Assembly: GCA_030679985.1 (NCBI GenBank)
Contig: JAUXSI010000036.1
Location: 1-43,411 of the forward strand
DNA length: 43,411 bases
Source of the DNA: Candidatus Moraniibacteriota bacterium
GTDB lineage: Bacteria > Patescibacteriota > Minisyncoccia > Moranbacterales > UBA2206
Reading direction: 5' to 3'
This document shows, in pieces, positions 7,183 through 43,411 of the stretch. Made by a program: the position numbers and the translations under genes. The notes below the pieces were generated by a model, which worked only from the letters and a program-made list of their open reading frames with translations, was not told the origin of the DNA and did no database searches. Numbering within the stretch: position 1 is the stretch's first letter; each line of letters begins with the position of its first letter.

Positions 7183-7201
7183 AAATTTTTTTATATATGA
7201 T

Positions 7202-7660: not shown

Positions 7661-7661
7661 A

Positions 7662-12576: not shown

Positions 12577-14427
12577 CTAAAGGCTGTCAATGATTTCACG
12601 CGCTTCTTCTTGCGTTTCTTGTTTTCTGAAGATGCGTTTTTCCAAAAGTCTTTCTCCTATTTGTTTTCTCTTTTCAGGTGGAAGTCCTGCGCGACCAGTC
12701 GCAACTTCTTCGGGAGTTAATTGTTTCCCAATTTCAACAGTTCCATCATTATTAACTCCAATATATTCATAAATCTCTCGTTCTTCAGTCATAACATAAA
12801 GAGGCATACCTCGTGTAGTCGCCACATCAAAACCAGTGCGATATTTATTCACAATCTCCATATGAGTTTCTTCCCCTATGCGAATATCTCTTTGCCATTC
12901 CTGATCGTTATTACTTACCTTTTTTGCTCGCTCTAATCGTTCTAATTGTATTTTTGTTGATAAACTGTCCGCCCAAAAACGTCCACTATCATCCCTTGCT
13001 ACATTCTTAAAAAACCCAAAAACTTCTGGGTTATTAACTACAACCTCATTTTTACCAAATGATCCCGTACTTTTATATTCTTTTGCATGTTCCTCAGTCT
13101 GGCGACCGACTATTTTATTAATATCTTCAATTGTTGCGTCAATACCACCTAGGCTTTTTCTATTTTTTATTCCAAGTGCATAAGTATTTGCGTCTCCATG
13201 TGAAGCCTCTCCAATCTGGCCTCCGCCCAATAAAAGCCCGCATGATCCTGGCCACAAAGAAGCCTTTTTCCCGGGGGTAACTGATGAAGCGGAAATCGAC
13301 GGCTCAAGCGCAAGTAGAGCATCCAAATCATCTTCGATTGTTGCTTTTTCAGAAACATTCGAATAAACATTGTGCCTAAATACGTCGTCGTCTGAAATTT
13401 TATGTACAATAAAAGCATTGTTGCGCTTCATAACATGCTCAAGTGAACGATTGAGCGTATCAAAACGCTCTCTTGCTATTGCGTCAGCTTTTGCATAATG
13501 TTCTTCGAGTTTTTCTTTGAGTGATTTAATTTTGCTACTATTATCCACTAATTGTGAAATATTCTCTCGCTCATCCTGTGCGTCTTGATCACTTAACTTC
13601 GCGGTTGAAATTCTTTCCTTTAGCACATTTGCTTCCTCACTTTGCGACTCAAGAATTCGTCCAAATTGATTGTCTTCTTGCTCACTTTCCATGTTTTCTG
13701 TAGAAATAATTGAATTCTCAGTCGTAGATTTAAGAGCTAAAAGTCTTTCCCGTTGCGCTTTTCGTTGTTCGCGAATTTCTTGTGCTAATTTTTTCCGTTC
13801 CTCGGCTAAAAATTTCTTGGATGCCTCTTTTTCACTTAATATCTCTGGATTTTCAATTGCCCGCTCTTTCATTACAGACATGCTTTCATATGAATCAAAA
13901 ATGCCTTGTTCTCCAAGTTTAGAAAAATCCGCTTCATGAAGTTGATACACAGGACCAATTGAACCATCTTTCATATATCTGATTTCATTTCCCTCCCAAT
14001 CTCCATTACTATTTTTACGCAGAGCGTATCCTGTTATCCTGCCTTCCTCATTTTCAGTTTTAACAATTACCGAACCTTTGAAATTTCGATCTCTCGTAAT
14101 ACCTACAATGCTGGCCTTTTCAGATTGGGATTTTGTAGGAGAAATTTCAGTCTCTAATTCTTTTTTTGCCTCTTCTGCCTCTACACCTAAATTTTCAAAT
14201 ATTTTTTTATCTTTACCATCAACAATTAATCCATCTTTTTCGGCCATTGTTTCAACCTGCGACAAATCATCGGCACACTCTTGTTTGAAATGGTCTGTTT
14301 GTTTTTCCGCTTCACTTGTCATTTGTTGACGCAACTCTTCAGCATCTTCAACGCTTCGCGGAGCTCCATGATTTTCTTGAGCTTCAGGTTTTTTTATTGC
14401 TTCATTTGCTGATGGTTCTTTATACAT
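12577..14427 (-). CDS. 616-aa coiled-coil protein with C-terminal globular region, function unknown
   Basis: Long ORF with charged or helical N-terminal half; C-terminal FIVHKI...RHNVYSNVSEKATIEDDLDALLALEPSISASSVTPG...GLLLGGGQIGEASHGDANTYALGIKNR. Confidence 0.8.
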   Translation of the reverse strand: MYKEPSANEAIKKPEAQENHGAPRSVEDAEELRQQMTSEAEKQTDHFKQECADDLSQVETMAEKDGLIVDGKDKKIFENLGVEAEEAKKELETEISPTKSQSEKASIVGITRDRNFKGSVIVKTENEEGRITGYALRKNSNGDWEGNEIRYMKDGSIGPVYQLHEADFSKLGEQGIFDSYESMSVMKERAIENPEILSEKEASKKFLAEERKKLAQEIREQRKAQRERLLALKSTTENSIISTENMESEQEDNQFGRILESQSEEANVLKERISTAKLSDQDAQDERENISQLVDNSSKIKSLKEKLEEHYAKADAIARERFDTLNRSLEHVMKRNNAFIVHKISDDDVFRHNVYSNVSEKATIEDDLDALLALEPSISASSVTPGKKASLWPGSCGLLLGGGQIGEASHGDANTYALGIKNRKSLGGIDATIEDINKIVGRQTEEHAKEYKSTGSFGKNEVVVNNPEVFGFFKNVARDDSGRFWADSLSTKIQLERLERAKKVSNNDQEWQRDIRIGEETHMEIVNKYRTGFDVATTRGMPLYVMTEEREIYEYIGVNNDGTVEIGKQLTPEEVATGRAGLPPEKRKQIGERLLEKRIFRKQETQEEAREIIDSL

Positions 14428-26820: not shown

Positions 26821-27648
26821 ATGATGCAAGAAAAAGCGAGAAACAATGCCATAGCTCTGTCCATCGGATTTTTTTTGATCGCTCTGATCACCCTTGCGAC
26901 TATTTTCCGTCCGTCTCCGAAAATTAAAAGCCCCGATTCCGGAAGCGCGGCCCGGCAAAGCGACCTCATAGGAAAATTAGACGCCGCTCCGAAAATCTCC
27001 AACGGCGAACTGTCCAAAAAGATCCAGCGGAAAGAAAAGATGACGCTGATAGATATCCGCTCCGAAATCGAATATGCCCGCGAACATTTGCTGGATTCGC
27101 AAAATATCCCGCTAGCGGAGATCAATGAGGCGCTCAATATATTGGATAAGCACGCAACCTACGTATTGATCGGCGCCGATGGCATATCCGAACCGGTCGC
27201 GACGGTGCTGGACGACCTGTCGGACAATGGCTTTGAAAATATGTTTTACCTTGAAGGCGGATTTTCCGCTTGGAAAGACGGCTATTACCCGACGATTTCC
27301 GAAGGCGATCCGAACCGGTTTACCGACCAATCCAAAGTAAATTATATCCAGACTGACGCATTAAAAGAACTGGCCGGTTCGGGAAAAAACCTGCTAATTA
27401 TCGACGTCAGGAAAAGCGACCGGTTCAACGAGGGACACCTGGACGGATCTATAAACATCTTCCTGGACGATCTGGAAAAGAGAAGAAAAGATATCCCGTT
27501 CGGAAAACAAATAATCCTTTGCGATGACAACGGACTAGGAGCCTTCAAGGCGGCCGTCAGGCTGTCCGATATGGGATTTTACAACGTCCTCACGTTTTCG
27601 GACGGATTGGATAACTGGAAAAAGAAAGGCTATCCGATCGTGAAATAG
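26821..27648 (+). CDS. Membrane-anchored tandem rhodanese-domain protein
   Basis: N-terminal TM; LIDIRSEIEYAREHL...GGFSAWKDGYYP and IIDVRKSDRFNEGHLDGSINI...ILCDDNGLGAFKA...GLDNWKKKGYP. Confidence 0.85.
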   Translation: MMQEKARNNAIALSIGFFLIALITLATIFRPSPKIKSPDSGSAARQSDLIGKLDAAPKISNGELSKKIQRKEKMTLIDIRSEIEYAREHLLDSQNIPLAEINEALNILDKHATYVLIGADGISEPVATVLDDLSDNGFENMFYLEGGFSAWKDGYYPTISEGDPNRFTDQSKVNYIQTDALKELAGSGKNLLIIDVRKSDRFNEGHLDGSINIFLDDLEKRRKDIPFGKQIILCDDNGLGAFKAAVRLSDMGFYNVLTFSDGLDNWKKKGYPIVK

Positions 27649-27691
27649 GGTTTGCGAAAAAGCCAGTCCGAAGATGCTTTCGACATATCCG

Positions 27692-28396
27692 TCAACTGGT
27701 CCTGCTAACCGGGTTTTTCGCGATATACGAATACAATACCAAGGCCTGGGAAGCTAGATATTTTATTATCTCCTGGTTGTTATTATCGCGACCCTGGAAC
27801 GCGTCAAAAGACCTTATGATCAGGTAACTCTTTATGTCATCGATAGTTTCATGCGAACGGAAGACGATGTAGTCGCCCGATTGCTTTATGAAAATATTTT
27901 CCCCCATCAAAAACAGATCCGGCTTCTGTTCGGGTGAACCGCACTTGTCGTTATGGCAGACATGCTTGATGATTTCATTGGTCCTGACATTAAAAAAAAC
28001 CAGGGTGGCGCATTCCGCCTTAAGGAGAAAAGTGGCCGACTCCGTAATTGAATGATATATCTCTTTTTCGCGCTTCTCATTCAGATTCGTCCGTTCGGAC
28101 AGGCCCATTCCGATCTGCATCAAAAGATCCATCTTGCGGTTTATCTCGCCGATATAGCTGTACGATTCGATCAAATCCCGCGCTGTCTGCTGCAACCTGC
28201 GCTGTTCCCGCTTTTTTTCCTTCTCTTGGACGGCCAATTGGTGTTCCTTCAGGATAAAAAACAGGAATCCGAGCATTCCCAAGAGAAATATCGCCAGCTC
28301 TTCGATCCGTTCATGCGGTATGCCGAAATAATCCTCGCGGAAAATGTCCGGAATCATTACGGCGATTATGAATATAGCTAGATATAACCAATACAT
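27692..28396 (-). CDS. Two-TM membrane protein with GAF-like cytoplasmic domain
   Basis: Two N-terminal TMs, coiled coil, then IGMGLSERTNL...ITESATFLLKAECATLVFFN pattern. Confidence 0.55.
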   Translation of the reverse strand: MYWLYLAIFIIAVMIPDIFREDYFGIPHERIEELAIFLLGMLGFLFFILKEHQLAVQEKEKKREQRRLQQTARDLIESYSYIGEINRKMDLLMQIGMGLSERTNLNEKREKEIYHSITESATFLLKAECATLVFFNVRTNEIIKHVCHNDKCGSPEQKPDLFLMGENIFIKQSGDYIVFRSHETIDDIKSYLIIRSFDAFQGRDNNNQEIIKYLASQALVLYSYIAKNPVSRTS

Positions 28397-28410
28397 AGGT
28401 TTTTTTAAGA

Positions 28411-28638
28411 TTAACGGAAGCCTGCGTCCGGTTCCTTGCTTTTGTCGATTATGACCTTGCGCTTATTGGAGAAAAAGAAAAGGTATAATATTTCCAATAT
28501 CCCGGCCGTGTTAAGCAGTAGCAGGATGACAAACCAAATCCCTTCGCCGCGCCGCGCCGATTTCCAAAGTGCGAAACCCTTCCAAGGTATCGACCAGACG
28601 ACAATCGCGATTAAGATAAAAAACAACTTATTTTCCAT
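28411..28638 (-). CDS. DUF5652-like small membrane protein
   Basis: IPWKGFALWKSARRGEGIWFVILLLLNTAGILEILYLFFF. Confidence 0.75.
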   Translation of the reverse strand: MENKLFFILIAIVVWSIPWKGFALWKSARRGEGIWFVILLLLNTAGILEILYLFFFSNKRKVIIDKSKEPDAGFR

Positions 28639-28689
28639 TCCGATTTTTCCTTAATGGTTACGTTTATATTTTATCATTAAAAACGGTTT

Positions 28690-29655
28690 TTATGAATTTT
28701 TTCCGGCCAGCGCGAGAAAGACCTGGCGGATTTTTTGCAAACTGTCCCAATCATGGATCGAGACCGTTTCGACATCCGGATTGATCCGGCTGATCGCTTT
28801 GATTTTTTCAGCTATCGCATTTTCATCAAGCAGATCGGCCTTGGTCAAAAGAATCATTTCTTTCTTGGTCAGCAACTCCTGGTCATAATCCCCCAATTCT
28901 TTGCGGATGGTCGCATAATCCTTTTGCGGATCCTCCGACTCGAGTGAAATGCAATGCACCAAAGCCTTGGTCCGTTTGATATGCTTGAGAAATTTTATGC
29001 CTAATCCCCTGCCCTTGGACGCGCCTTCGATAAGGCCTGGTATGTCGGCGATTATGATGCCGTCCATAGCTCCCAAATTAGGCTCCAGGGTCGTAAATTC
29101 ATAATTAGCCACCTTGGCATCCGCCTTGGTCAATTCATTGAGAAGACTGGACTTGCCGATATTGGGCAACCCGACCAGTCCGATATCCGCGATCAACCGG
29201 AGCTCGATCATAAACTCAAATTCCTCCCCCAGCTTCCCATCTTCATGTTCTTCCGGGGACGTGTTTATCGGCGAACGAAAACAGAAATTTCCGCGTCCGC
29301 CGATACCGCCCTCCGCCACCCGTATCGGCTTGCCGACTTCCGACACGTCGATATCCTCGCCCGTATTCAAATTATGCAAAACCGAACCGATCGGCACAGT
29401 CAGGACTATGTCTTCGCCACTGTGGCCGTCTGAATTATCCGACCGGCCATCCTTGCCGTTGCCGGCATAATGCTTAGGCTTGTTTTTATACTTGTTTAAA
29501 GCTGACAAATTCGAAACGCCTTGGAAATAGACATCCCCGCCCTTGCCGCCGGTTCCGCCGGTCGGGCCAAGGCTCATCTTAGTCTTATTGAAAGCCACGA
29601 CACCGTTTCCGCCCCGTCCGGCAAAAATTTTGATTTTTACTTCATCAGTTAACAT
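28690..29655 (-). CDS. obgE: GTPase ObgE/CgtA
   Basis: MLTDEVKIKIFAGRGGNGVVAFNKTK...GGTGGKGGDVYF, GLPNIGKSSLLN, ADIPGLIEGAS. Confidence 0.97.
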   Translation of the reverse strand: MLTDEVKIKIFAGRGGNGVVAFNKTKMSLGPTGGTGGKGGDVYFQGVSNLSALNKYKNKPKHYAGNGKDGRSDNSDGHSGEDIVLTVPIGSVLHNLNTGEDIDVSEVGKPIRVAEGGIGGRGNFCFRSPINTSPEEHEDGKLGEEFEFMIELRLIADIGLVGLPNIGKSSLLNELTKADAKVANYEFTTLEPNLGAMDGIIIADIPGLIEGASKGRGLGIKFLKHIKRTKALVHCISLESEDPQKDYATIRKELGDYDQELLTKKEMILLTKADLLDENAIAEKIKAISRINPDVETVSIHDWDSLQKIRQVFLALAGKNS

Positions 29656-29656
29656 A

Positions 29657-29702
29657 AATTCTACGAATTACGAATAAAATACAAATTTACAAATATACGA
29701 AA
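29657..29702. repeat. Dispersed TACGAAT/TACAAAT-type repeat, copy 1
   Basis: TTCTACGAATTACGAATAAAATACAAATTTACAAATATACGAAA. Confidence 0.6.
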
Positions 29703-29706
29703 TTTT

Positions 29707-30429
29707 CTAATCATTTTTAACTCCGAGGTTTGCGAGAAATTCCTCCAGTTCATCGCCCGACAGCCGCCTTTTTTGTCCCGGACGGTTGGTCAGTTTTACG
29801 TTCATGATCCGCACCCTTTTCAGATCGAGCACCGCATAGCCCAGAGCGGTGCACATTCGGCGGATCTGGTGCTTCTTGCCTTCCGTCAGGACGATCTTGA
29901 AAATGTAGTCATCCAGCTTCTCAACGACGCACTCCTTGGTCGTAAAATCTTCCAACTTGATCCCGCGGCGCATATGTTTTAGAAATTGGTTTTTTATCGG
30001 CTTGTCCACCGCGACCACATACTCCTTCTCGTGGCCATATTCCGGACTGAGCAATTTTTCAGTGACCCGCCCGTCGTTAGTCAGGATAATCAACCCATGG
30101 GAAGCCATATCGAGCCGTCCGACCGGAAAAACATCGGCAGCGGCATCCGTGGCTTGACGGATATCTTTTTGTCCCGCTTCCGGCGTGTGCGTCACGATGC
30201 CGATAGGCTTGTAATAGGCGTAATATTCATATTTTTTAAGCGCGTTTTTCAATTTTTTATCAACCGCCACTACATCATTTTCATTGACTCTATCCCCCAA
30301 AACAGCCACTCTTCCATTGATTTTGACCATTCCTTTCCCGATCAATACATCCGCTTCACGCCGACTGCAAAAACCCCGCGTTTTAGACAGGTAACGGTTG
30401 ATGCGCATTGGATAGGTCAGATTTTCCAT
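29707..30429 (-). CDS. RsuA/RluB/RluF family rRNA pseudouridine synthase (ORF extends to 30471)
   Basis: S4 domain plus PVGRLDMASHGLIILTNDG and EGKKHQIRRMC. Confidence 0.93.
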   Translation of the reverse strand: MENLTYPMRINRYLSKTRGFCSRREADVLIGKGMVKINGRVAVLGDRVNENDVVAVDKKLKNALKKYEYYAYYKPIGIVTHTPEAGQKDIRQATDAAADVFPVGRLDMASHGLIILTNDGRVTEKLLSPEYGHEKEYVVAVDKPIKNQFLKHMRRGIKLEDFTTKECVVEKLDDYIFKIVLTEGKKHQIRRMCTALGYAVLDLKRVRIMNVKLTNRPGQKRRLSGDELEEFLANLGVKND

Positions 30430-30576
30430 AATTAAATGGCTTAGACTTTTTGGACTATAACTATACCACACTATTTTTATTTTTGCAAGGGCATTCGGCC
30501 GACCCGCCTAATTGCGTCTTTTTACGGCCGGATCGCTCTCGCTAGTAACATTTTTCCACCCGATGGTGTATAATGA

Positions 30577-31662
30577 TTGCAACCAAGTTTTGACACCCTT
30601 ATGAAAATATTTTTGCGTACATTCATCATCCTCGGATTCGCCGCCGGACTGATCGGAGGGTATTTATTGACAGTGCAGGACAAATCCTACGCCCTTTCTG
30701 ACCTGCTCGGACAAAAAACAGCCATCCTGCCCAAAGCCGGATTGCCGGCGACACCTTCGCAAACCGCGCCGGCCATCCAAACTGATTCTCCTGCAACATC
30801 CACGCCAACCGAAACTACGGACCCAAAACCTGTTCCGGCTGATCCGGCCGCGCCGACCGGTTTTTCTTTCGCTGTCATCGGCGACACGCAAAGGTTTGAT
30901 CCAAAAAATCCCACCGGCGGATTACAACAAGCTGTCCAATCCATCGCGGGAAAAAACGTTTCTTTCCTGATGACCAGCGGCGATCTGCTTTCCAGCTGCG
31001 ACGGCAAAGACAAGTGCCGGGACAATTTGCAGCAATGGAAAAACATCCTGGAACCGATCAATGCCAAAACATACGCGGTGATGGGAAACCACGACCGGAC
31101 CGGCCGCAGCAAAGCCGACCGCCTCTGGCAGGATTTTTTCGACCTGCCGAAAAACGGACCGGCTGGATTCGAGGAATTGGTCTATTCATTCGATTTTGAA
31201 AATACCCACGTCGTCGTTTTGAATTGCGAAAAACCCGACGAAAACGCTTTGGGACGGGAACAGCTCAATTGGCTCAAGTCCGACCTCGCCCGCAATAAGC
31301 AAGAGCATACTTTGGTATTTTTTCACGCACCCGCCTATCCGGTCAGCTCCAAGCAAGGCGAAAGTCTCGATACGAATCCGGACGATCGCGATGAATTGTG
31401 GCGCATCCTCCAGTCCCACCAGGTGGACGCGGTATTCAACGGACACGAGCATATCCACAGCCGCCGGAAAATCGGCACGATCCATCAATTCGTATTCGGC
31501 AATACCGACTCGTTCGACCATGACCTGCCCGAACCGGATGTGGCGGATTATTCCTATCGCGGAAAAAGTTTCGGCCTCGTGACCATCCAAGGCGCCGTCG
31601 TGAAAGTCGATGCCTACGCGGTTGACGGGACACTCCTGGATTCATTCGAACTGCCACGATAG
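30577..31662 (+). CDS. Membrane-anchored or secreted metallophosphoesterase
   Basis: N-terminal TM, Pro/Thr linker, FAVIGDTQRFD, MTSGDLLSSC, VMGNHDR, FFHAPAYP, FNGHEHIHSR. Confidence 0.9.
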   Translation: MQPSFDTLMKIFLRTFIILGFAAGLIGGYLLTVQDKSYALSDLLGQKTAILPKAGLPATPSQTAPAIQTDSPATSTPTETTDPKPVPADPAAPTGFSFAVIGDTQRFDPKNPTGGLQQAVQSIAGKNVSFLMTSGDLLSSCDGKDKCRDNLQQWKNILEPINAKTYAVMGNHDRTGRSKADRLWQDFFDLPKNGPAGFEELVYSFDFENTHVVVLNCEKPDENALGREQLNWLKSDLARNKQEHTLVFFHAPAYPVSSKQGESLDTNPDDRDELWRILQSHQVDAVFNGHEHIHSRRKIGTIHQFVFGNTDSFDHDLPEPDVADYSYRGKSFGLVTIQGAVVKVDAYAVDGTLLDSFELPR

Positions 31663-31738
31663 CCCTTTTGCTCCGTGATAAGCGCGGAGGTTGATTTTTT
31701 TGCCGGCTTGATATACGATATATAGGAATTAAACTTAT

Positions 31739-31810
31739 TGGGGAGTAGCCAAGCGGTAAGGCACAAGGTTCTGGTCCTTGGATGCGGGGGTTCGAATCCC
31801 TCCTCCCCAA
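31739..31810 (+). tRNA. tRNA-Gln (anticodon CTG)
   Basis: TGGGGAG...CTCCCCA acceptor; anticodon loop TTCTGGT; T-loop GGTTCGAATCC. Confidence 0.95.
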
Positions 31811-31825
31811 CTAATTGAATTTAAA

Positions 31826-32188: not shown

Positions 32189-33280
32189 ATGAAAAAACTA
32201 GCCATAGCAATACTGTCAGTCTTATTGGTGAGTGCAACAGCCTATTCAGCAAGTTGGGAAATTTTAGGCGATCAAGGCTTCAATGATCATTATTCAACTA
32301 AACACAAGATAGCCGTTCACCCAAAAACTCAAGAAGTTTATGTGGCTTTCAAAGACTTTAATCATTCGAATAAGGCAACCGTAAAAAAATTCAATGGTTC
32401 GTCTTGGGAAGTTGTTGGCACCACAGGTTTCAGTATTGGAGAGATAGGAAATGGCAGGATTGGATTTACCTTCAATCCCCTAACTAATGAACCTTACTTA
32501 GCCTATGAAGACTGGTCCAATTCAAACAGGATAAGCGTCATGAGATTCAATGGCTCCTCCTGGACCAGTGTTGGTATTCCTGGATTCAGCAAGGGTCGCG
32601 TGACGGATATCAGCATCGCATTTAACCCAAAAACGAACGAACCTTATGTGGCATATGAGAGCGGGACTAAGATTACAGTCATGAAGTTCGATGGGCAATC
32701 ATGGATTAATGTTGGGAATCCAGAGTTTGGAGGAGCGGCTAATGAGTTTGTCTCAGGCGTAGACATTGCTTTCGATGCCAGTGAGCCGTATGTTACGTAT
32801 AGCATTCATAGCTCTGGAAGAATACTCGTAGTCAAGCTCCATGCGAACTCATGGATTGATTTTGGAAATACAGGGGCTAACTACGTCAATGTATTTACCC
32901 CCAGCATATTATTCCAACCCACGACCAATGTTCCATATGTGATTTACGGATATGATGGAGGCATCGAAGTAATTAAGTTCAATGGGGAATGGAAGAGTGT
33001 GGGCAAAGAAATATCTAATACCCATTCCTGGTTGGATATGTCTATGGGTTTTAATCCTAAAACCCAAGAACCCTACGTAGCGTTCCAGGACTATTCAAAA
33101 TATTTCAAGCTTACAGTGAAAAAATTTAATGGAAAATATTGGAGCCCGATAGATTTGCCAGGCTTTAGTTCAGGCGCGGTTAGCGATATAGCTATGACCT
33201 TCGACAAGAACGGCATTGCCTATATAACTTTCCACGACCATTCATTGGACAAATCTATTGTCATAAAATTAAATCCCTAA
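32189..33280 (+). CDS. Secreted repeat protein, predicted about seven-bladed beta-propeller
   Basis: Signal peptide MKKLAIAILSVLLVSATAYSA; about 7 repeats of the type (F)NPKTNEPYVAYxDxxxxxxxTVKKFNGSSWxxVGxxGFS; RBS AAAGGAG. Confidence 0.75.
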   Translation: MKKLAIAILSVLLVSATAYSASWEILGDQGFNDHYSTKHKIAVHPKTQEVYVAFKDFNHSNKATVKKFNGSSWEVVGTTGFSIGEIGNGRIGFTFNPLTNEPYLAYEDWSNSNRISVMRFNGSSWTSVGIPGFSKGRVTDISIAFNPKTNEPYVAYESGTKITVMKFDGQSWINVGNPEFGGAANEFVSGVDIAFDASEPYVTYSIHSSGRILVVKLHANSWIDFGNTGANYVNVFTPSILFQPTTNVPYVIYGYDGGIEVIKFNGEWKSVGKEISNTHSWLDMSMGFNPKTQEPYVAFQDYSKYFKLTVKKFNGKYWSPIDLPGFSSGAVSDIAMTFDKNGIAYITFHDHSLDKSIVIKLNP

Positions 33281-33506: not shown

Positions 33507-33529
33507 AGACTGATTAACTAAATCAGTCT
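33507..33529 (-). terminator. Terminator of the nuclease/kinase operon
   Basis: AGACTGATTTAGTTAATCAGTCT followed by TTTTGTTTT on the minus strand. Confidence 0.7.
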
Positions 33530-33602: not shown

Positions 33603-34247
33603 CTATCGTGCATATGTAGCTCTCATCATTTGCTCTGCTAAATAAGCGTGTGCCACCAAGTTGGATGGATTTTTCTTTTTAGCCTTCAAAATAATATCTA
33701 TTTTATCAGTCGACACAACAATTAAACCAATATTATGCTTTTTTAATAAATCTAAATCAACCCTATGGGAAAATTTCTCACTTATAGCCAAATAACTTTC
33801 ATGAGAATATGTTTTATATCTTAAGGCCTGATAAAATCCACCCTTCCAATCTGCCAATTTAGCTTCTATTGATATTATTTCTTTTATAGGGGAGGTGTAT
33901 GTATTTTTAACAAAAAATTCATCTTCGTTAATTTTTTCTAATATTTCATTTTTTACCAAAAGATTAATTAAATTTAATACCTGCTTTTTAGTAAGGAATG
34001 TATCTTCACAAAATTTTTTAATCTCTATTTTTTTATTTTTTCTATTAAAATATTTTAAAACCGTAAATACATCATCGTAATCCAATGCCATGGCATCCCT
34101 GTTATTTATTTTTTCAGTAACAAATACTAGATCAGCAATTCCATTTCCACTATTAAATTCACTTACAAAATGTCCGTCTGATATCTGATACTTTTCGGAT
34201 AGATATTTCCTTAATATAGGAATCATTTCTTTTTCGAAGTTAAACAT
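33603..34247 (-). CDS. PD-(D/E)XK nuclease-like protein
   Basis: SGNGIADLVFV ... IISIEAKLADWKGGFYQALRYK (D...ExK); probable winged-helix insert; overlaps the kinase stop by 8 bp. Confidence 0.6.
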   Translation of the reverse strand: MFNFEKEMIPILRKYLSEKYQISDGHFVSEFNSGNGIADLVFVTEKINNRDAMALDYDDVFTVLKYFNRKNKKIEIKKFCEDTFLTKKQVLNLINLLVKNEILEKINEDEFFVKNTYTSPIKEIISIEAKLADWKGGFYQALRYKTYSHESYLAISEKFSHRVDLDLLKKHNIGLIVVSTDKIDIILKAKKKNPSNLVAHAYLAEQMMRATYAR

Positions 34248-36318
34248 AATATTTTTCTTTTAATTTAGTAAAAACATTCTTCCACTTATTTAAGAATAAG
34301 TAGTCATCAGATTTAAAGACACTCCGAAGATTATTGTAATTTGTTAGTGCATCATCTATCCTTAGTAAAAACGCGTCTACCTTATCATTTTGGCTAAGAG
34401 ACTCCATTTTATTAATTTCACTATAAATATTCTCCAAAAAATGCAAATTGGCATTCTTATCTTTTATAATTTCAGGATTAGACTTACCATTACAATAATA
34501 ACAGCTACATGTACCAATAACATTTGCAATTTCATCAAATTTTGTTGGTGTCCTTCTATTAATAGATATTGTACTTAATAATTCTGGAAAAAAATATCTA
34601 ACATACATATTGTACGATTCACTAGTCTCACTGTATAAGCCCTCATAGAAACTTTCAAACCTAGCTGTTCCCGAAGTGAAACTACTGATGCCAAATGACA
34701 ACAATCCTATGCCTAAGCCAGCATTAACTCTTCCTGCAATAACAGGTTTTTTAGTCCACATCTGAAGTTCAATTAAAAAATCTATATAATTATACAATGT
34801 TGTCTCAGGTGTTTTATTATCAATACAATCTGCATAAATAAGAAATCCATCCGTATCAAAAGAAGATAAAACATTTAGAAAGTGTTTTTTTGAGCGTTTG
34901 TCATTGAGAAAATCAGCTCTTATACACACGCCCATATAAATCTCCTTATCAGGGGAAAAACTATCCCTATAATCTATACTTTCTTTCGCCAATTTGCAGT
35001 CAAGATCAAACCACTCAGCTATTAAATTACGATCTGGACCAAATCCAACTGATGAATTATGGATATAATGAAAAGGTGAAACTAGGCTTGTAGCATCTAA
35101 TTCAATCTGCTTGTCAATAACTTTTTTTACATATACTTTTTGATCTGAATAATGCCTCAAAGTTTCTGGAGTAATCACACTATAATCAGTAGGCGCATAA
35201 GGAAGTTCGCGAACACCTCTTGTTTCAGCATAAGCTGGATATGCCAAGCGAACAGTTGCTGGATCTATAATAATTTTAATATTTTCATCTTTTTGAATTT
35301 TTTCTTTTAGTCCTGGCTGATTTACTTCTAAATTAGCCGGGAAATCAACCCAACCAAAATCCTTATTTCTATCTGTGAATTCCTCTAGAACTGATTTATC
35401 ATTATATAACCTAAGAATAAATCTTGGTGACAAATCGTATTTTTTTATTTTACCATTTCCAGCTACAGCATCAATCGTATCTAAAACTTCCTTTATCTTA
35501 GTAAATCGTTGATATGGATTTTTTTCAAGCAACTTTAAAATTATATTTTCAATTTTATTGCTGATCTCATGATTCCTCCTCCTTGGGGGAATTGCGGGAT
35601 CATTTTTTATTTTATCAAGCAATTCTGGCTGATACTGAAAATCATATGGAAAAAATCCAGTTAGCATCTCATATAAAATAACCCCGGCTGTATATAAATC
35701 ACTTCGCTTGTCTATGTGCTTACTATCAGTAATCTGCTCTGGAGACATATATGGACCAGTTCCAAATACCTCACCAGTACTTGTAATCGAGGTAAAATCG
35801 ATAACTTTTGAAATTCCAAAATCAACTATTTTTATCCTTCCATTATTCTGCACCAAAATATTTTCAGGCTTCAAATCTCTATGAATAATTCCAATATCTT
35901 CACCATCTCCTCTTAAATTATGAAGGTAATCTAATCCCTCTAAAATTTGCTTAAACAATATCACCGCATCTTCTTCTTTCAATTTTTCATTTTCATTTAG
36001 AATTTCTCTTAAATTCTTCCCATCAATATATTCCATTACTAGAAAAAAATTCTTACCAGCCTCATCTTCAATAACAAAGTCATCTATATATCTTACAAGG
36101 AGTTCATGAGAAACAGACTTCATGATGTCAATCTCTCTTTGCAATCTATTGTCCTTCTCCCCATGCTTTTTGAATTCCCTTAATAAATAGTCTTCATTAA
36201 AAATCTTAATAGCATAAGTAAATTCATCTTTTGTAGCTTTATAAACTGCGCCAAATCCTCCCTTATTTATAAAAGAATCTATTCTGTATCCATTTATTGT
36301 TTGATTCAATAGTTGCAT
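34240..36318 (-). CDS. Ser/Thr protein kinase fused to a C-terminal TIM-barrel/TGT-like region
   Basis: Kinase motifs GGFGAVYKA, YAIKIF, HRDLKPENILVQNNGRIKIVDFG, GTGPYMSPEQ; C-terminal PVIAGRVNAGLGIGLLSFGISSFTSG and GTCSCYYC (CxCxxC) then LHFL. Confidence 0.8.
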   Translation of the reverse strand: MQLLNQTINGYRIDSFINKGGFGAVYKATKDEFTYAIKIFNEDYLLREFKKHGEKDNRLQREIDIMKSVSHELLVRYIDDFVIEDEAGKNFFLVMEYIDGKNLREILNENEKLKEEDAVILFKQILEGLDYLHNLRGDGEDIGIIHRDLKPENILVQNNGRIKIVDFGISKVIDFTSITSTGEVFGTGPYMSPEQITDSKHIDKRSDLYTAGVILYEMLTGFFPYDFQYQPELLDKIKNDPAIPPRRRNHEISNKIENIILKLLEKNPYQRFTKIKEVLDTIDAVAGNGKIKKYDLSPRFILRLYNDKSVLEEFTDRNKDFGWVDFPANLEVNQPGLKEKIQKDENIKIIIDPATVRLAYPAYAETRGVRELPYAPTDYSVITPETLRHYSDQKVYVKKVIDKQIELDATSLVSPFHYIHNSSVGFGPDRNLIAEWFDLDCKLAKESIDYRDSFSPDKEIYMGVCIRADFLNDKRSKKHFLNVLSSFDTDGFLIYADCIDNKTPETTLYNYIDFLIELQMWTKKPVIAGRVNAGLGIGLLSFGISSFTSGTARFESFYEGLYSETSESYNMYVRYFFPELLSTISINRRTPTKFDEIANVIGTCSCYYCNGKSNPEIIKDKNANLHFLENIYSEINKMESLSQNDKVDAFLLRIDDALTNYNNLRSVFKSDDYLFLNKWKNVFTKLKEKYYV

Positions 36319-36663: not shown

Positions 36664-36697
36664 GTATCCTACCATACCGGCACTTGGTTATAGAACA

Positions 36698-38446
36698 TTA
36701 TTTGATTTTTTCACCGCATTCGTAGAAAATTTTGTGCGGACATTCTTTGCATTTGCCGGCATCCAATTTTTCCACGATGTATTTTATCGCGTCAGGCTTG
36801 GAATTGAAGATATTGCCTTCTCCTAGCGCTTTGACCAGGCCGTATTTCTGCAACTTTTCATATACAGGCTTGTTCACGTTGCTGATGTAGAGATCTCCGC
36901 CCTTGCCGCGGTATATTTTCATCTGCTCGATCAACATATCGATGCCCGCCAAATCGATCGAACTCACCCCGCTAAAGACGATCAACAGGTTCTTCTGATC
37001 CGGGTAGCGCTTCTGGAGATTGCCTAATTCCTGCTCGATATTGCTTACCGAGCCGAAAAAGATCGCTCCGTCGATTTTTATGATCGACAGTTGCGGACAC
37101 TTGGGCAGATCGCAGGAAGCGATGAACTTATGGTTAGGATGCGACGGATCAGGCGTCAGGCAGATGACCAGGGGCTTTGAGGTGCGCCGCAGATATAGCG
37201 TGACTGACAGGAATACGCCGACAAAAATAGCGAACTCAAGCTCTAGAAACAAGGTTGAAAGAAAAGTGACCAGCAGCAATCCGATTTCCCCCTTGCTTGA
37301 TCTGGCGATATGGCGGATATGGCGGAAATCGATAAGTCCCCAAGCCACCAAAAACAAGATGCCCGCCATCACAGCTACCGGCAAAAATTTCGCCAATGAC
37401 GCGACAAACAGGATAATTATGCCTAAAAAAACAGCGGCAAAAATGGAAGCCAGCGGGGTTTTGGCTCCCGACTCATAATTCAATCCGCTCCGATTAAAAG
37501 AACCGCTGGCCGGATAGGCGGAAAAAAAGCTTCCGACCAAATTAGACATTCCCTGTCCGATGACTTCCTGGTTGCCGTCGATACGCTGGCCGGAACGCAA
37601 GGCCACCGCGCGGGAAATAGCGATCGCTTCGGTCAGGGCCAGCATCGTGATCGCGAGCGCCGGAGAAGCGATTTGCCTCAGGACCGCCGGATCGAAGCTT
37701 GGCATAGAAAGCGGCGGCAAAGCCGCCGGCAAAGCCCCGACCGTTTTGATGCCGGTCACCCCGAAACCGAAGTGATCGTTCATCAAAAGTCCGACCAGAC
37801 TGCCGACGAGCATCGCCGGGATCATATAGGGGAACTTCGGCCAAAACTTCTTTATGATGATGCCGGAAAGCAGTGTCGCCAGTCCGACGATCAATACGAA
37901 ATGGTTTATGGTATCGAATTTTGTAATGAAGATGTGGATCGTTTCATAGAAAGAACTGCCTTGTGGCACACTGATGCCGAAAAAATTCTTGATCTGGCTC
38001 GACATGATCAGGATGCTCGCGCCGGCCGTAAAACCGACCACGACGGTGTGCGAGATGAAATTGAGCAGTTTTCCGACTTTCATCCAGCCCATCAAAAGCT
38101 GGATTAGGCCGACCACGAAAGTCAGGGTCAGGGCCAATTTGACATATTCCGCCGTACCGACGCTCGCCAACGGGCTGATCGAAGCGAAAACCACGAGCGA
38201 AATGGCGGTAGTCGGTCCGGAAACCAAATGGCGGGAAGAACCCCAGAGCGCCGCGATGATCGCTGGAACGATCGCCGAATATAATCCGTATTCGGGCGGC
38301 AACCCGGCAATCGTAGCGAAGGCGACACCTTGAGGCAAAACGATCACCGCGCCGATAAACCCGGCGATGATGTCGCTTTGCAAGCTCGCGCGCGTTATCG
38401 TATTTTTCCATTTGATGAACGGGAATATCCTTTCTAATTTTGGCAT
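36698..38446 (-). CDS. SulP/SLC26 family anion transporter with C-terminal STAS domain (ORF extends to 38530)
   Basis: DIIAGFIGAVIVLPQGVAFATIAGLPPEYGLYSAIVPAI, GSSRHLVSGPTTAISLVVFA, STAS-type FSGVSSIDLAGIDML. Confidence 0.95.
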   Translation of the reverse strand: MPKLERIFPFIKWKNTITRASLQSDIIAGFIGAVIVLPQGVAFATIAGLPPEYGLYSAIVPAIIAALWGSSRHLVSGPTTAISLVVFASISPLASVGTAEYVKLALTLTFVVGLIQLLMGWMKVGKLLNFISHTVVVGFTAGASILIMSSQIKNFFGISVPQGSSFYETIHIFITKFDTINHFVLIVGLATLLSGIIIKKFWPKFPYMIPAMLVGSLVGLLMNDHFGFGVTGIKTVGALPAALPPLSMPSFDPAVLRQIASPALAITMLALTEAIAISRAVALRSGQRIDGNQEVIGQGMSNLVGSFFSAYPASGSFNRSGLNYESGAKTPLASIFAAVFLGIIILFVASLAKFLPVAVMAGILFLVAWGLIDFRHIRHIARSSKGEIGLLLVTFLSTLFLELEFAIFVGVFLSVTLYLRRTSKPLVICLTPDPSHPNHKFIASCDLPKCPQLSIIKIDGAIFFGSVSNIEQELGNLQKRYPDQKNLLIVFSGVSSIDLAGIDMLIEQMKIYRGKGGDLYISNVNKPVYEKLQKYGLVKALGEGNIFNSKPDAIKYIVEKLDAGKCKECPHKIFYECGEKIK

Positions 38447-38472
38447 ATTGTTTATTTGAATGATAAAAAAAT

Positions 38473-38500
38473 AAAAACAAGACTTAGAGGTCTTGTTTTT
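38473..38500. terminator. Stem-loop terminator between ftsX and the SulP gene
   Basis: AAAAACAAGACTTAGAGGTCTTGTTTTT. Confidence 0.7.
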
Positions 38501-38575
38501 AAATATACTCTTTCGGATAATTTTTGACAACCCCCATCAGTGCCGGCCTGTCCGGGATTTCGAGCCGAATAATCA

Positions 38576-39484
38576 TCACACCTTCAAATACTTTCTCATC
38601 GCGATCAGGCTGCCGATTACGCCCAAAAATACGCCCAGCGCCGCCTGTCCGCCCAGCAGTATCCCGAAATTATTGAAATAGAATTCAACTAGGTTGCTTG
38701 ACGGAATCGCCGAAGAAACATAAGGCGTCACGAATCTCACGGAAATAAATAGGATCAGCATCGAAAAAACCGTTCCCATCACGCCATAAATGACGCCTTC
38801 GAATATGAACGGCATCCGGATGAAATAATTCGAAGCACCGACCAGCCGCATAATCTCGATTTCCTGCTTATGGGTATAAATCGTGATTCTGACCGCATTG
38901 AAAGTGATGAGCAGGGAGATGGCGGCGAACAATATGCCCAAGCTAGTGCCGATTTTTTTGATTGTCGCGACGATACTGTTCAATCTGTCGATGATTTCCT
39001 TGTTTTTACCATAATTTATCCGGCTGATCTCACTGAAAAAAGCAGCTTGGTTGATATGGTCAGAAATCGCCTGGTACCGGGTCGGGTCGCCGGCCTTGAC
39101 GACCAGTGAAGCCAGCAGCGGATTGCCGCCTATCTCATCCAGCGATTGCAGGATGATCGGCTCGGAAGCGTTGTTTTTCTTAAAATCCTCCAAAGCCTGT
39201 TCTTTGGAAACATATCTGACGGATTGAACTTCATTGAAACCCTCCAAATCCGCCTTGACTTCCGCGATGGTCTGCTCTGACACGTCCGGCTTGAAATAGA
39301 TGCTGATATTCACTTTGCCCTGGACGTCTTTCATTATGCTGTTGGCCGTGGAAGTGACCACGAAAAAAACGCTCAAAACGTAGAGGGAAAGGATCAGAAT
39401 ACTTACGGTCGCGATCGAAAGCCAGCCATTGCGGATAAAATTTTGGATCGCTTCCCGGAATGTCCGCCTGATTGTTAAAAACAT
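38576..39484 (-). CDS. ftsX: Cell division protein FtsX (ORF extends to 39640; start likely MFLTIRRTFREA)
   Basis: FREAIQNFIRNGWLSIATVSIL, NVSIYFKPDV-like segment, EIEIMRLVGASNYFIRMPFIFEGVIYG; downstream of ftsE. Confidence 0.93.
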   Translation of the reverse strand: MFLTIRRTFREAIQNFIRNGWLSIATVSILILSLYVLSVFFVVTSTANSIMKDVQGKVNISIYFKPDVSEQTIAEVKADLEGFNEVQSVRYVSKEQALEDFKKNNASEPIILQSLDEIGGNPLLASLVVKAGDPTRYQAISDHINQAAFFSEISRINYGKNKEIIDRLNSIVATIKKIGTSLGILFAAISLLITFNAVRITIYTHKQEIEIMRLVGASNYFIRMPFIFEGVIYGVMGTVFSMLILFISVRFVTPYVSSAIPSSNLVEFYFNNFGILLGGQAALGVFLGVIGSLIAMRKYLKV

Positions 39485-39506
39485 AGGATTTTGATTGATG
39501 TTTATT

Positions 39507-40190
39507 TTATGAAGCTTTGTATTTTCCCTTGGCGCAATCGACGATGATTTTGCCATTATCCAAAACCAGCACGCGCCTGTTGACCTTGTCCACGATATCC
39601 TTATCATGGCTGGCCAAAACAACCGTCGTGCCCAACTCATTTATCCGCATCAGCAACTGGACGATCTCGAGCGAAGTGACAGGATCAAGATTGCCGGTCG
39701 GTTCATCGGCGATGATCACCATTGGCGCATGCACCAAGGCGCGTGCGATCGCCACCTTCTGCTGTTCGCCACCGCTCAATTGGTTGGGATATTTTTTCAT
39801 CTTCTCGCCCATACTGACGATATCCAAAATTTGTTGGACGTTTTCTTGTATTTCTTCGTCAGGAATGCCGGCGACCTCCAACGCGTAGGCCACGTTCTCA
39901 AAAACCGTCTTTCTCGGAAGCAGTTTGAAATCTTGGAAAATCATCCCGATATTCCTGCGGTGGTAAGGCAGCTTTCTGCGACTGAGGTTATTCAGAAGAC
40001 TGGAATTGAAATAAACCTCGCCACTGGTAGCCATCTCTTCCGCATAAATCAATTTTAACAGCGTCGATTTTCCGGAACCGCTTTGCCCCACGACCGAAAC
40101 GAATTCACCTTCGTGGATTTCCAGATTGATATCTTCAAGAGCGGGGAAATCCCCCTTATAAACTTTGGAAACTGAATCGAATTTTATCAT
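39507..40190 (-). CDS. ftsE: Cell division ATP-binding protein FtsE
   Basis: [43 protein letters not shown]. Confidence 0.95.
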
Positions 40191-40246
40191 TTTTTTTCGT
40201 TCTTCGTTTGTATTTTTATTTAACGGAAGCGCATCTGCATTCTACA

Positions 40247-41339
40247 TTATTTTTTCATATTTTTCAAATAGGCTTCCATAAACCCGGTCAAGTCCCCGTC
40301 CAGCACGCTTTCCGCGTTAGCGGTTTCGTGTTTGGTGCGATGATCTTTGACCATCTTGTCCGGATGGACCACATACGAGCGGATCTGACTCCCCCATTCC
40401 GCCGAAGTGTATTCGCCACGCAACTTCTGTTTTTCACTTTCCTGCTCAGCCAGATATTTCTGATGCAACTTGGCTTTCAGGATTTTGATCGCCTGTTCCT
40501 TGTTCTGCATCTGGCTGCGCTCGTTCTGGCAAGTCACCACGATTCCCGTCGGGATATGCGTGACGCGCACCGCGCTATCGGTCGTATTGACGCTTTGTCC
40601 TCCCGCTCCGGATGAACGGTACACATCCACCCGCAAATCCTGCGCCCCGATCACGACTTCCTTCATCGCTTCGATAACCGGCAAAACCTCCACCAATGCG
40701 AAGGATGTCTGCCGTAAATTATCCGAATTGAAAGGCGAAAGACGCACCAAGCGATGCACGCCGGCTTCGCTTTTAAGGTAGCCGAAAGCGTACGGACCGT
40801 TGACTTCAAGCGTCACGCTTTTAATGCCCGCTTCGCTTCCGCGTGCTTCATCCATAATTTTTGTCCGGAAACCGTTCTTCTCCGCCCAGCGCAGATACAT
40901 CCGCAAAAGCATCTCGGCCCAATCCTGCGCATCCACGCCGCCCGCTCCACTGTGGATGGCCAAGATCACGTCATTACGGTCATATTCTCCGCCTAGCAGG
41001 ATTTTGAACTCAAGCTTGCCGGTTTCCTTTTCCAGCCCGCCGATTTTTTCTTCCATTTCCCGCGCCTCTTCACTTTCTTCCGCGATTATTTCCGCCATTT
41101 CCAACAATTCATCGATTTCCGTCTCCAAGCGGCTCAAATCCGTGATCTCCTTGCGCAATTCCTCCAATTCCTGCATTATTCCCGAGGCTTTTTGACTATC
41201 ATTCCAAAACCCGATTTGATTCGATTGATTTTCCAAATCAACGATTTTTTCCTGTTTTTTGGGCAAGTCAAAGATAGTCGCTCAAAAGAGCGACTTTAGA
41301 TTGCAGTCCTTTCAATTTTTCCTGGATCTCTTTGATCAT
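40247..41339 (-). CDS. prfB: Peptide chain release factor 2, +1 programmed frameshift (ORF1 41339-41268; main ORF 40247-41266)
   Basis: ATG-MIKEIQEKLKGLQSKVALLSDYL then CTT TGA C frameshift site at 41273-41267; main ORF has GAGGVDAQDWAEMLLRMY and SSGAGGQSVNTTDSAVRVTHIPTG. Confidence 0.95.
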
Positions 41340-41340
41340 A

Positions 41341-41859
41341 TTACAGATAATTTTTGATCAACTCGATGTGCTCCGCTTCAACCTTCGCCAAGGCGGCAAA
41401 AAATATTTTTATTTTCTGTTCGCCGGCCTCGCTGGCGAACCTAGTATAAAGTCCGCTGGCATATTCTTCCAATTCGACGGTGCGTTTGAAATTCTCGATA
41501 TCATCATCAGAACACTGCTCCGTCAAGCCGGCCGGCATCTGCAGCCCGAGAAATTTGGTTACGATCGTCGCATGCTCCAGCTCCACTTTCGCCAAGCGCT
41601 TATACATTTTCTCCAGTTCATACGAATCCGCCTTGCCTGCCATACACAAATAAATCGCATTGGCCTTCATTTCCAAATCCAAAGTTTCCAAGAGGTTCTT
41701 TTTAGATTCTTCGGAAATATCCCCTTCCCGTCTGAAAACCGGCACAGCCTCACTTCCAGGTTTGATATACCCCCCGTCCGCCCCGCAAAAAGGGCATTTC
41801 GAAGGCGCCTCAGTCCCCAAATAGGCGTCCCCGCAAATTTCACAGATAAATGTTTTCAT
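41341..41859 (-). CDS. Reverse rubrerythrin (N-terminal rubredoxin domain plus ferritin-like domain)
   Basis: CEICGDAY...CPFCGA at N-terminus; E...H/ExxH di-iron motifs KVELEHA, KVEAEHIE. Confidence 0.88.
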   Translation of the reverse strand: MKTFICEICGDAYLGTEAPSKCPFCGADGGYIKPGSEAVPVFRREGDISEESKKNLLETLDLEMKANAIYLCMAGKADSYELEKMYKRLAKVELEHATIVTKFLGLQMPAGLTEQCSDDDIENFKRTVELEEYASGLYTRFASEAGEQKIKIFFAALAKVEAEHIELIKNYL

Positions 41860-41912
41860 AACCGGTAAAATTTAATGGATTAATTGTAAAGTAGGTTTCA
41901 TGCATCTATGTG

Positions 41913-41985
41913 AGCCGATGGCCGGAGTCGAACCGGCGACCTGCACGTTACGAGTGTGCTGCTCTACCAACTGAGCCACATCGGC
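41913..41985 (-). tRNA. tRNA-Thr (anticodon CGT)
   Basis: GCCGATG...CATCGGC acceptor; anticodon loop CTCGTAA; T-arm GCCGGTTCGACTCCGGC. Confidence 0.93.
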
Positions 41986-41991
41986 GATTTC

Positions 41992-42894
41992 CTATTCCGT
42001 TTTGTCAACCAATCTCCGCCATTCATCTTTCACGATTTTCTTCACTTCGTCAAGTACAGGCTTGTTTTTTTCAGAAAACAGATGTTTGAACCGTCCCTGG
42101 GTCTTTAAAAATTCTTCCACCGGCTTCGGATTTTCCGTCGCCCAGTTCACTTTGTATTTACCGTTCTCAATCTCAAACAGCGGCCAAAAATTCGTCTCAG
42201 TAGCTAATTTGGCGATCGCCACATACTGCGAGGTAGGGAATTTCCAATTGTTCGTGCATGGCGAAAAAACACTCAGAAACGCCGGCCCTTCCGTCTCGAA
42301 AGCTTTGCGCGCTTTCTTTTTGAGATCGGCCAGATAGGCCACGTTGGCCTGCGCCGCATATTTGATATGGTGCGCGTCCACGATTTCCATCAGATTCTTG
42401 CGCATCTCCACTTTGCCGAAAGATTCCTTGCCGACCGGAGTGGTTTCCGTATTGGCGGCATAGGGCGTCGCCGACGACCTTTGGTTGCCCGTATTCATAT
42501 AACCGCCGTTGTCATAGACCACATAGACGAAATCATGCCCCCGCTCCAGCGCGCCGGACAGGCTTTGCAACCCGATATCATAAGTGCTTCCATCACCGCC
42601 AAAAACCACGAATTTAATCTTTTTAGCCACTTTGCCTTTTTTACTTAAAATTTTATGCGCCCGCTCCACGCCGGAAATGGTCGCGGAAGCGTTTTCAAAA
42701 GCGCTGTGGATGAAAGGCACCTTCCAGGCCGTATATGGATACAGCGTCGAAGTCACCTCCAAACAGCCCGTAGCGTTGGAAACTACCACCGGATCCGGCG
42801 ACTCGCCGAGGATCGTCCGGACGATTGTCGGAAAAGCGCAGCCTGCGCACGCACTGTGTCCCGACGCGAAATTTTTAGCTAAGTCTTTATTCAT
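41992..42894 (-). CDS. porB: Pyruvate/2-oxoacid:ferredoxin oxidoreductase beta subunit
   Basis: GHSACAGCAFPTIVRTIL, ATGCLEV, FVVFGGDGSTYDIGLQSLSGALERGHDFVYVVYDNGGYMNTG. Confidence 0.93.
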   Translation of the reverse strand: MNKDLAKNFASGHSACAGCAFPTIVRTILGESPDPVVVSNATGCLEVTSTLYPYTAWKVPFIHSAFENASATISGVERAHKILSKKGKVAKKIKFVVFGGDGSTYDIGLQSLSGALERGHDFVYVVYDNGGYMNTGNQRSSATPYAANTETTPVGKESFGKVEMRKNLMEIVDAHHIKYAAQANVAYLADLKKKARKAFETEGPAFLSVFSPCTNNWKFPTSQYVAIAKLATETNFWPLFEIENGKYKVNWATENPKPVEEFLKTQGRFKHLFSEKNKPVLDEVKKIVKDEWRRLVDKTE

Positions 42895-42896
42895 AT

Positions 42897-42942
42897 CCTC
42901 TACGAATTACGAATTTGTACAAATTTACGAATATACAAATCT
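42897..42942. repeat. Dispersed TACGAAT/TACAAAT-type repeat, copy 2
   Basis: TCTACGAATTACGAATTTGTACAAATTTACGAATATACAAAT. Confidence 0.6.
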
Positions 42943-42949
42943 CTTTTTA

Positions 42950-43351
42950 TTATTTAATGCCTATGTATTTAATCTCTTTTGAAATCTTCCCCGCCCCCAA
43001 GTCTTCAAAAACTTTTTCAATATCCTTGGAGAAAATGTCGCGGCCGCCCAAGCTATAGATGATCGACTGGACTTTTTTGGTTTCACCTGATTGATAGAGT
43101 CCGTTCACGATGTCGTTATAAATCGGCGGATAGGTTCCGGAAGAAATCGCCCGCTCCATCACCGCGATACTTTTGGCATTTTTCAGGGCGCTCAAAATTT
43201 CTCGCAGCGGAAAAGGCCGGAACAAGCTTATTTTCAAAAGCCCGACTTTTTTGCCGGCTTGGCGCATCCGATCAACCACATCTTTCGTCGTGCCAGCCGT
43301 CGAACCGGCCAATATAATCACTTCTTCCGCGTCCTCGATCAAAAAAGACAC
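42950..43351 (-). CDS. Pyruvate:ferredoxin oxidoreductase alpha subunit, C-terminal part (truncated or split)
   Basis: EDAEEVIILAGSTAGTTKDVVDRMRQAGKKVGLLKISLFRPFP; apparent GTG start; in-frame stop TAA at 43381-43379. Confidence 0.75.
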   Translation of the reverse strand: MSFLIEDAEEVIILAGSTAGTTKDVVDRMRQAGKKVGLLKISLFRPFPLREILSALKNAKSIAVMERAISSGTYPPIYNDIVNGLYQSGETKKVQSIIYSLGGRDIFSKDIEKVFEDLGAGKISKEIKYIGIK

Positions 43352-43411
43352 AAAATAATCTATTATTCTAACCCTTAATTATACAAATTCCTTTGAGATT
43401 TAAAGATATTC

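Follow-up and report, generated by a model that had tools for sequence, protein, structure and literature searches.

Two overlapping genes at a variable genomic site

The window (the whole stretch of DNA that was analyzed, 43,411 nucleotides) derives from a 1.07 Mb draft genome of a Candidatus Moraniibacteriota bacterium and carries two genes, P0001 and P0002, that overlap by 8 bp (Table 1). P0001 (692 aa) encodes a kinase domain followed by a barrel related in fold to the tRNA-guanine transglycosylases (TGT), and P0002 encodes a protein with the signature of a PD-(D/E)XK nuclease. The pair is AT-rich, with a GC content of 29-32% vs 44-52% in the flanks, and a tRNA-Gln gene lies at a distance of about 1.8 kb, separated from the pair by one gene. 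The initial annotation, made without database searches, had placed the two genes at 33603-36318 and had described a complete Hanks-type kinase followed by a C-terminal region of about 400 aa; this description held, based on Pfam and on the positions of the motifs, as did the overlap, the AT-richness and the nearby tRNA-Gln. The terminator that it proposed is supported by position only. One terminator-like stem-loop was found against 1.3 expected by chance, and its placement directly 3' of the operon is the sole support.

Table 1 Features of the module and of the site that it occupies, in positions of the window
Feature	Position	Strand	Evidence or conservation
Kinase-barrel gene P0001, 692 aa	34240..36318	-	
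Hanks-type Ser/Thr kinase domain, P0001 residues 1-285	35464..36318	-	Pfam Pkinase and motifs
TGT-like TIM-barrel domain, P0001 residues 286-692 (~400 aa)	34243..35463	-	AlphaFold and Foldseek
D352, end of strand 3, aligned with the Asp of TDSGGFQ	35263..35265	-	D in 33/35 relatives
T548, aligned with the TGT nucleophile Asp (FDC motif)	34675..34677	-	Asp in 0/37 relatives
C604-x-C606-x-x-C609 (CSCYYC, 604-609), zinc-site-like	34492..34509	-	In about half of barrels
H626, aligned with the TGT zinc-ligand His (HNL)	34441..34443	-	H in 33/37
PD-(D/E)XK-like nuclease P0002, 214 aa	33603..34247	-	Invariant motif, AlphaFold, Foldseek
Winged-helix insertion between D and ExK motifs, P0002 residues about 55-118	33894..34085	-	Profile matches to MarR/SarA/Z-alpha, DSSP
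Intrinsic-terminator-like stem-loop and T tract, 3' of the nuclease gene	33507..33529	-	Sequence scan
tRNA-Gln	31739..31811		
Interval from tRNA-Gln to the SulP gene, content differs from same-genus genome	31812..36691	.	blastn synteny break and ORFs of the relative

The kinase domain matches Pfam Pkinase (3.2e-54 over residues 13-279) and its motifs are intact (GGFGAVYK at residue 20, HRDLKPEN at 146-153 with HRD at 146-148, and DFG at 166).

A genome of the same genus aligns by blastn at 83-93% identity over 27002-30557, 31679-31811 (the tRNA-Gln) and 36692-43411. The synteny on both flanks shows that the pair genuinely belongs to this genome, at a site of variable content. The same-genus genome lacks the pair at the corresponding site and has an ABC-transporter operon (MacAB-like by reading) there instead; this region (L116, G001:C27, 7254-11297) comprises a MacAB-like efflux operon and a MarR-type regulator between tRNA-Gln and SulP. 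The barrel is absent from all 54 other relatives searched. The nearest barrel among those placed in a tree is from a Campylobacterota sample genome (L104) and is 66% identical to the window copy, which points to horizontal transfer.

No recognized defense gene was found near the pair within the window. Other genes of the window include a calcineurin-like phosphoesterase just before the tRNA-Gln (30577-31662, plus strand), whose absence from the same-genus genome makes a second synteny gap, and, inside the variable interval, a 363-aa repeat protein with a signal peptide (32189-33280, plus strand) that is beta-propeller-like by eye and has no Pfam match. A 616-aa ORF without a Pfam match (12577-14427, minus strand) lies in a separate AT-rich patch (GC about 34%).

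A TGT-like barrel without the nucleophile

Residues 286-692 of P0001 have no match in Pfam, PADLOC, NCBIfam or PHROGs. An AlphaFold model computed with 16 natural sequences as input is confident (pLDDT 87.7, pTM 0.89), and in a Foldseek comparison against the PDB the first nine ranks are all TGT (best E 8e-7, probability 1.0). DpdA follows at rank 10 (1.2e-4) and the complex of Cap10 and CdnD from CBASS at rank 33 (9e-4), with other TIM barrels from 2e-4. The prediction of a C-terminal TGT-like TIM barrel thus held, as the fold matched TGT and not an unrelated fold.

At the sequence level the relationship is faint. Fold comparison alone gave a TGT match; searches of PDB sequences with single proteins or profiles gave none, and Pfam gave no TGT match (PF01702) for any of the 16 barrels tested. 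When barrels were aligned by profile (hhalign) with TGT sequences from the phylum of the source genome (17 at most), the match was weak (P 7e-5 to 3e-3), yet collinear: D352 pairs with the first Asp motif, C604, C606 and C609 with the cysteines of the zinc site, and H626 with its His. The resemblance of the CxCxxC motif and downstream His to the TGT zinc site, noted in the initial annotation, therefore held. Since CxCxxC is missing from about half of the relatives, zinc cannot be a general requirement of the barrel family. P415 is kept in 36 of 36 relatives.

The TGT nucleophile Asp is missing from the window protein and from its relatives, which makes transglycosylation by the barrel unlikely. 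The register at position 548 depends on the weak profile alignment; with this caveat, the barrel is a TGT-related domain but probably not a TGT enzyme. The source genome carries its own separate canonical TGT.

A PD-(D/E)XK-like nuclease with an inserted winged helix

P0002 contains the motifs GNGIADLVF (D39) and SIEAKL (E128 and K130). Six residues (E5, D39, E128, K130, Q140, and G174) are invariant in all 37 nuclease sequences and make up an E...D...ExK...Q signature. The AlphaFold model has a pLDDT of 90.6, and its only Foldseek match below 1e-3 is 3dnx (E 4e-4), with BsaWI and Cas4 SSO0001 weaker. This best match, 3dnx, is SPO1766, an MmcB-like protein. The weaker matches to PD-(D/E)XK folds are probably due to the inserted winged helix, which is present in most of the nucleases; four (L006, L097, L106, and L107) lack the helix and retain the motif. 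Pfam, PADLOC and NCBIfam gave no significant family for P0002, and its only PHROG match, to phrog_2776 of unknown function, is weak (2e-4). P0002 thus meets the core fold and the catalytic signature of PD-(D/E)XK proteins, as the initial annotation had proposed, with fold support weaker than motif support; nuclease activity is inferred.

The barrel and the nuclease travel together

Across all searches, we counted 38 loci with the barrel–nuclease pair. They are found in Patescibacteria, Bacillota, Bacteroidota, Campylobacterota and UBP11, on plasmids of three bacterial phyla and on one haloarchaeal plasmid, a spread that covers five or more bacterial phyla and reaches one archaeon. Its side-by-side presence in 38 loci means that the arrangement is not due to chance. 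A scan of 85,000 species genomes for the nuclease only detected 15 loci, all 15 with an adjoining barrel. HMM surveys of four phyla (about 290 genomes each, some overlapping with the larger scan) detected the nuclease with E<1e-7 in 24 genomes besides that of the window, and the barrel is adjacent in 23 of them; in the single exception the contig ends inside the neighboring kinase. The reverse search gave the same picture, as all seven barrel-positive Bacillota genomes are also nuclease-positive and the barrel-positive Patescibacteria are exactly the five nuclease-positive genomes. Co-occurrence, one of the checks named in the initial annotation, is thus almost without exception. Pairwise distances of nucleases and barrels are correlated (Mantel r 0.78, with 0 of 2000 permutations as high), to which common descent alone could contribute.

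One barrel without an adjoining nuclease was detected, on a Gordonia plasmid (L018). There the barrel (6842-8086) has as neighbors a gene of the MbcA/ParS/Xre antitoxin family and one for a type IIG enzyme. An apparent second barrel, in G232:C21, proved to be no orphan but the other half of one gene broken at contig ends. Weak nuclease matches with E>1e-7 (G255, G362, G375, G675, G719, G922, and G1118) were dropped as chance or unrelated; in three neighborhoods read among them (L072, L102, and L103) there is no barrel.

One Patescibacteria genome has two diverged copies of the module (L066 in G343:C61 and L023 in G343:C20). No recognizable relative of the barrel or the nuclease was found in the phage records and viral contigs searched, and thus nothing in them marks the module as a set of phage genes.

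The third component is exchangeable

A kinase is present in 28 of the 38 pair loci, either fused to the barrel (in the window, L003, L004, L020, L021, and others) or encoded by a separate gene (L005, L006, L030-L033, L069-L071, L094-L097, L099, and L105), and its motifs are intact in nearly all of these loci. Three loci have a PIN-domain RNase in place of the kinase (L014, L016, and L068). Four others have a Panacea-type protein (L100, L101, L106, and L107), two of them with a SIR2-like gene. In the members tested, Pfam confirmed PIN_3, SIR2_2, PP2C and, for L107, Panacea; L100, L101 and L106 were called Panacea type by likeness to L107. No third gene was found in L017, L019 or L093, the latter two at contig ends. 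In the barrel tree, the PIN type and each of two Panacea types form supported clades. The barrel and nuclease are thus the constant core of the module and the third component is exchangeable.

At least three kinase-type loci (L033, L069, and L105) have a PP2C phosphatase beside them, a pairing found in two different phyla.

The initial annotation had not anticipated this exchange of the kinase around a constant core, the missing nucleophile Asp or the winged helix inside the nuclease.

Defense genes and mobile elements near the module

PADLOC identified defense or transposition genes near several copies: type I specificity and restriction subunits and Ppl (L014), LmuB and PDC-M62A (L095), a type I methyltransferase (L097), Avs2 (L068, E 1e-265), and TnsB and TnsC, plus a TnsA-like gene (L106). 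A type IIG/DrmMI methyltransferase neighbors L005. In all, six pair loci lie beside restriction-modification, Avs2, Lamassu-like or Tn7-like genes. These neighbors were picked by eye and without a background rate, so the defense context is suggestive and is not an enrichment test. Four copies of the pair are plasmid-borne, recombinase genes occur near L021, L029, L031, L097, and L123, and prophage genes surround L033 (by eye). The complete module of L003 (7005-9674) is on a Priestia megaterium plasmid.

The PIN-type module of L068 (G523:C6, 5528-14000) is about 3 kb from the Avs2 gene. In L106 (G1149:C16, 131-6928), the Panacea-type, nuclease and barrel genes lie immediately upstream of tnsA-like, tnsB, tnsC, and tniQ-like genes that share their strand, and thus this trio is seemingly cargo of a Tn7-like transposon.

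Proposed function and alternative explanations

We propose that the pair is a copy of a mobile modular conflict system with a constant core of a remodeled TGT barrel and a winged-helix PD-(D/E)XK nuclease, a reading to which we assign a probability of roughly 0.5. Supporting it are the co-conservation of the two proteins, the invariant nuclease site, the TGT fold, the exchangeable third parts, the defense and mobile-element neighbors, the absence of the pair from the same-genus genome and the precedent of Cap10. Against it stand the weakness of the TGT similarity at the sequence level, the fact that neither the sensing nor the killing part has been shown, the selection of defense neighbors by eye without a background rate and the window itself, which has no recognized defense gene nearby. 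An anti-invader function of the module is likely; the roles of its components are inferred and no function has been assayed. If this reading is correct, the most likely target of the conflict would be a phage or plasmid, for which the support comes from context only.

In the proposed mechanism, the barrel would bind, and not exchange, a ligand that is a sign of invasion: a nucleobase, a nucleic acid with modified bases or a partner protein that carries a modification. The fused kinase would respond to this binding, perhaps by phosphorylating the nuclease or some other target, after which the nuclease, which has a winged DNA-binding helix of its own, would cut DNA. In loci without a kinase, the PIN RNase or the Panacea-type protein (with or without SIR2) may fill the regulatory or second-effector role. 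Cap10 offers, by analogy, a precedent for the barrel as a binding module, a role that is inferred.

The initial annotation had named three outcomes that would refute it (an unrelated fold of the C-terminal region, no PD-(D/E)XK fold, and no co-occurrence of homologs), and none was met. The defense-type layout that it proposed is supported by context only, and the roles that it gave to the barrel (sensor or nucleobase binder) and to the nuclease (effector) are unproven and remain inferred.

The main rival, which we regard as possible, is abortive infection, with the barrel and nuclease-fold protein as the sensor and the third protein (kinase, PIN RNase or SIR2) as the toxic effector that shuts the cell down. 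Kinases, PIN domains and SIR2 are well known as interchangeable effectors toxic to the cell. The third slot varies around a constant core, and the PP2C beside kinase versions would fit a need to reverse phosphorylation. However, the complete conservation of the nuclease active site (37 of 37 sequences) speaks for the importance of cutting, no third gene was found beside the barrel and nuclease of L017, and Panacea in the third slot is an antitoxin and not an effector. Sequence alone cannot separate our main reading from one in which the third protein is the effector. A toxin-antitoxin system, in which the nuclease (or the kinase, PIN or SIR2 protein) would be a toxin restrained by its partner, with maintenance of mobile DNA primary and defense secondary, is suggested by the Panacea antitoxin domain in four loci (with a Pfam match in L107), the overlapping or convergent gene pairs and the several plasmid-borne copies. 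We consider it unlikely, as a barrel of 400 aa is far bigger than usual antitoxins, three enzymes per module are unusual for toxin-antitoxin systems, and most loci lack Panacea.

Two further explanations fit the data poorly. The barrel could be an active, Dpd-like DNA or RNA transglycosylase that marks self, the nuclease restricting unmarked DNA; DpdA is among the structural matches, and TGT homologs occur in Dpd and BRC systems (PMC12839542). This is very unlikely given that none of 37 sequences has an Asp at the position that aligns with the nucleophile, that no QueC-, DpdB- or DpdC-like genes were recognized near the window, and that no recurrent modification partner appeared in the neighborhoods read. 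Also hard to sustain is a role outside conflict, as an accessory stress-signaling operon whose nuclease fold serves a housekeeping, MmcB-like function in DNA repair. The best fold match of the nuclease (SPO1766) and the absence of defense genes at the window are consistent with it, but the sporadic spread linked to plasmids, transposons and prophages, the exchangeable toxin-type partners and the defense neighbors speak against it.

A bolder form of our main reading is that the module is a widespread, unnamed defense system with a nucleobase-sensing core and plug-in kinase, PIN or SIR2 modules, in which a TGT barrel that has lost its transglycosylase chemistry would be the infection sensor, responding to a nucleobase, a nucleic acid with modified bases or a protein end that carries a modification, and would drive an exchangeable signaling or toxic output jointly with the nuclease. 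We lean slightly against this joint claim.

Comparison with known systems

The barrel, the nuclease and the pair are not described in Pfam, PADLOC or the open-access literature searched (main text as searched), in agreement with the initial annotation, which had recognized no named system. Neither is the module described in the main text, as searched, of the Dpd, BRC (PMC12839542), Panacea-network and DefensePredictor papers, and the module did not satisfy all the criteria of any named family or system with which it was compared. The known kind to which the module would belong is that of the modular prokaryotic conflict systems; that it represents a distinct immune principle is possible. Two of its three protein types are without a Pfam or PADLOC family and yet they co-travel across phyla with swappable kinase, PIN, Panacea, and SIR2 partners.

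The kinase resembles those of several defense systems. PADLOC models of the PD-T4-6 and MADS MAD6 kinases match the kinase domain of P0001 strongly (3e-69), but membership was rejected because the match is confined to the generic kinase domain. PD-T4-6 is a stand-alone defense Ser/Thr kinase, whereas here the kinase is fused to the barrel, or lies beside barrel and nuclease, in 28 loci. P0001 scores 153 bits vs an NCBIfam cut-off of 460 for MAD6, with no mad partners recognized beside the window pair, and its kinase scores 58 bits vs a cut-off of 990 for BREX PglW, failing that criterion as well. An annotation limited to the kinase, as current tools would give, would conceal the system.

P0002 shares the E...D...ExK...Q motif and a partial fold match with known PD-(D/E)XK nucleases (MmcB-like 3dnx, BsaWI and Cas4 SSO0001). 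Its family differs in that most members have a winged helix between the D and ExK strands, and no Pfam family fits.

The barrel shares with TGT (PF01702) and DpdA the TIM-barrel fold, the collinear CxCxxC...H zinc site and the first Asp, but it has no Pfam match, the nucleophile Asp is gone in all relatives and the Cys cluster is missing in about half of them. The Dpd partners (preQ0 pathway, DpdB, and DpdC) were not recognized among the window neighbors or in the related loci read. BRC (HerA/FtsK with BREX-like and GNAT/TGT components; PMC12839542) likewise has a TGT homolog in a defense operon; its hallmarks PglZ, DUF6079, HerA, and DUF4007 were not recognized among the genes read adjoining the pair loci. 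The Type IV CBASS partners (CD-NTase, the QueC-like Cap9, and Cap10) were not recognized beside any locus read. Cap10 itself (PDB 9ntn) is a TGT-family protein of a phage-defense operon that has been remodeled to bind a protein end modified with 7-amido-7-deazaguanine (PMC11996544), and it is a structural match to the barrel, ranking below true TGTs in Foldseek. Unlike Cap10, the barrel is joined to a kinase and has a nuclease as its partner. The module also poses the question of which ligand a TGT barrel without its nucleophile would bind. If the module is immune, it would be a further case, after Dpd and Cap10 of CBASS, of tRNA-modification machinery turned to defense.
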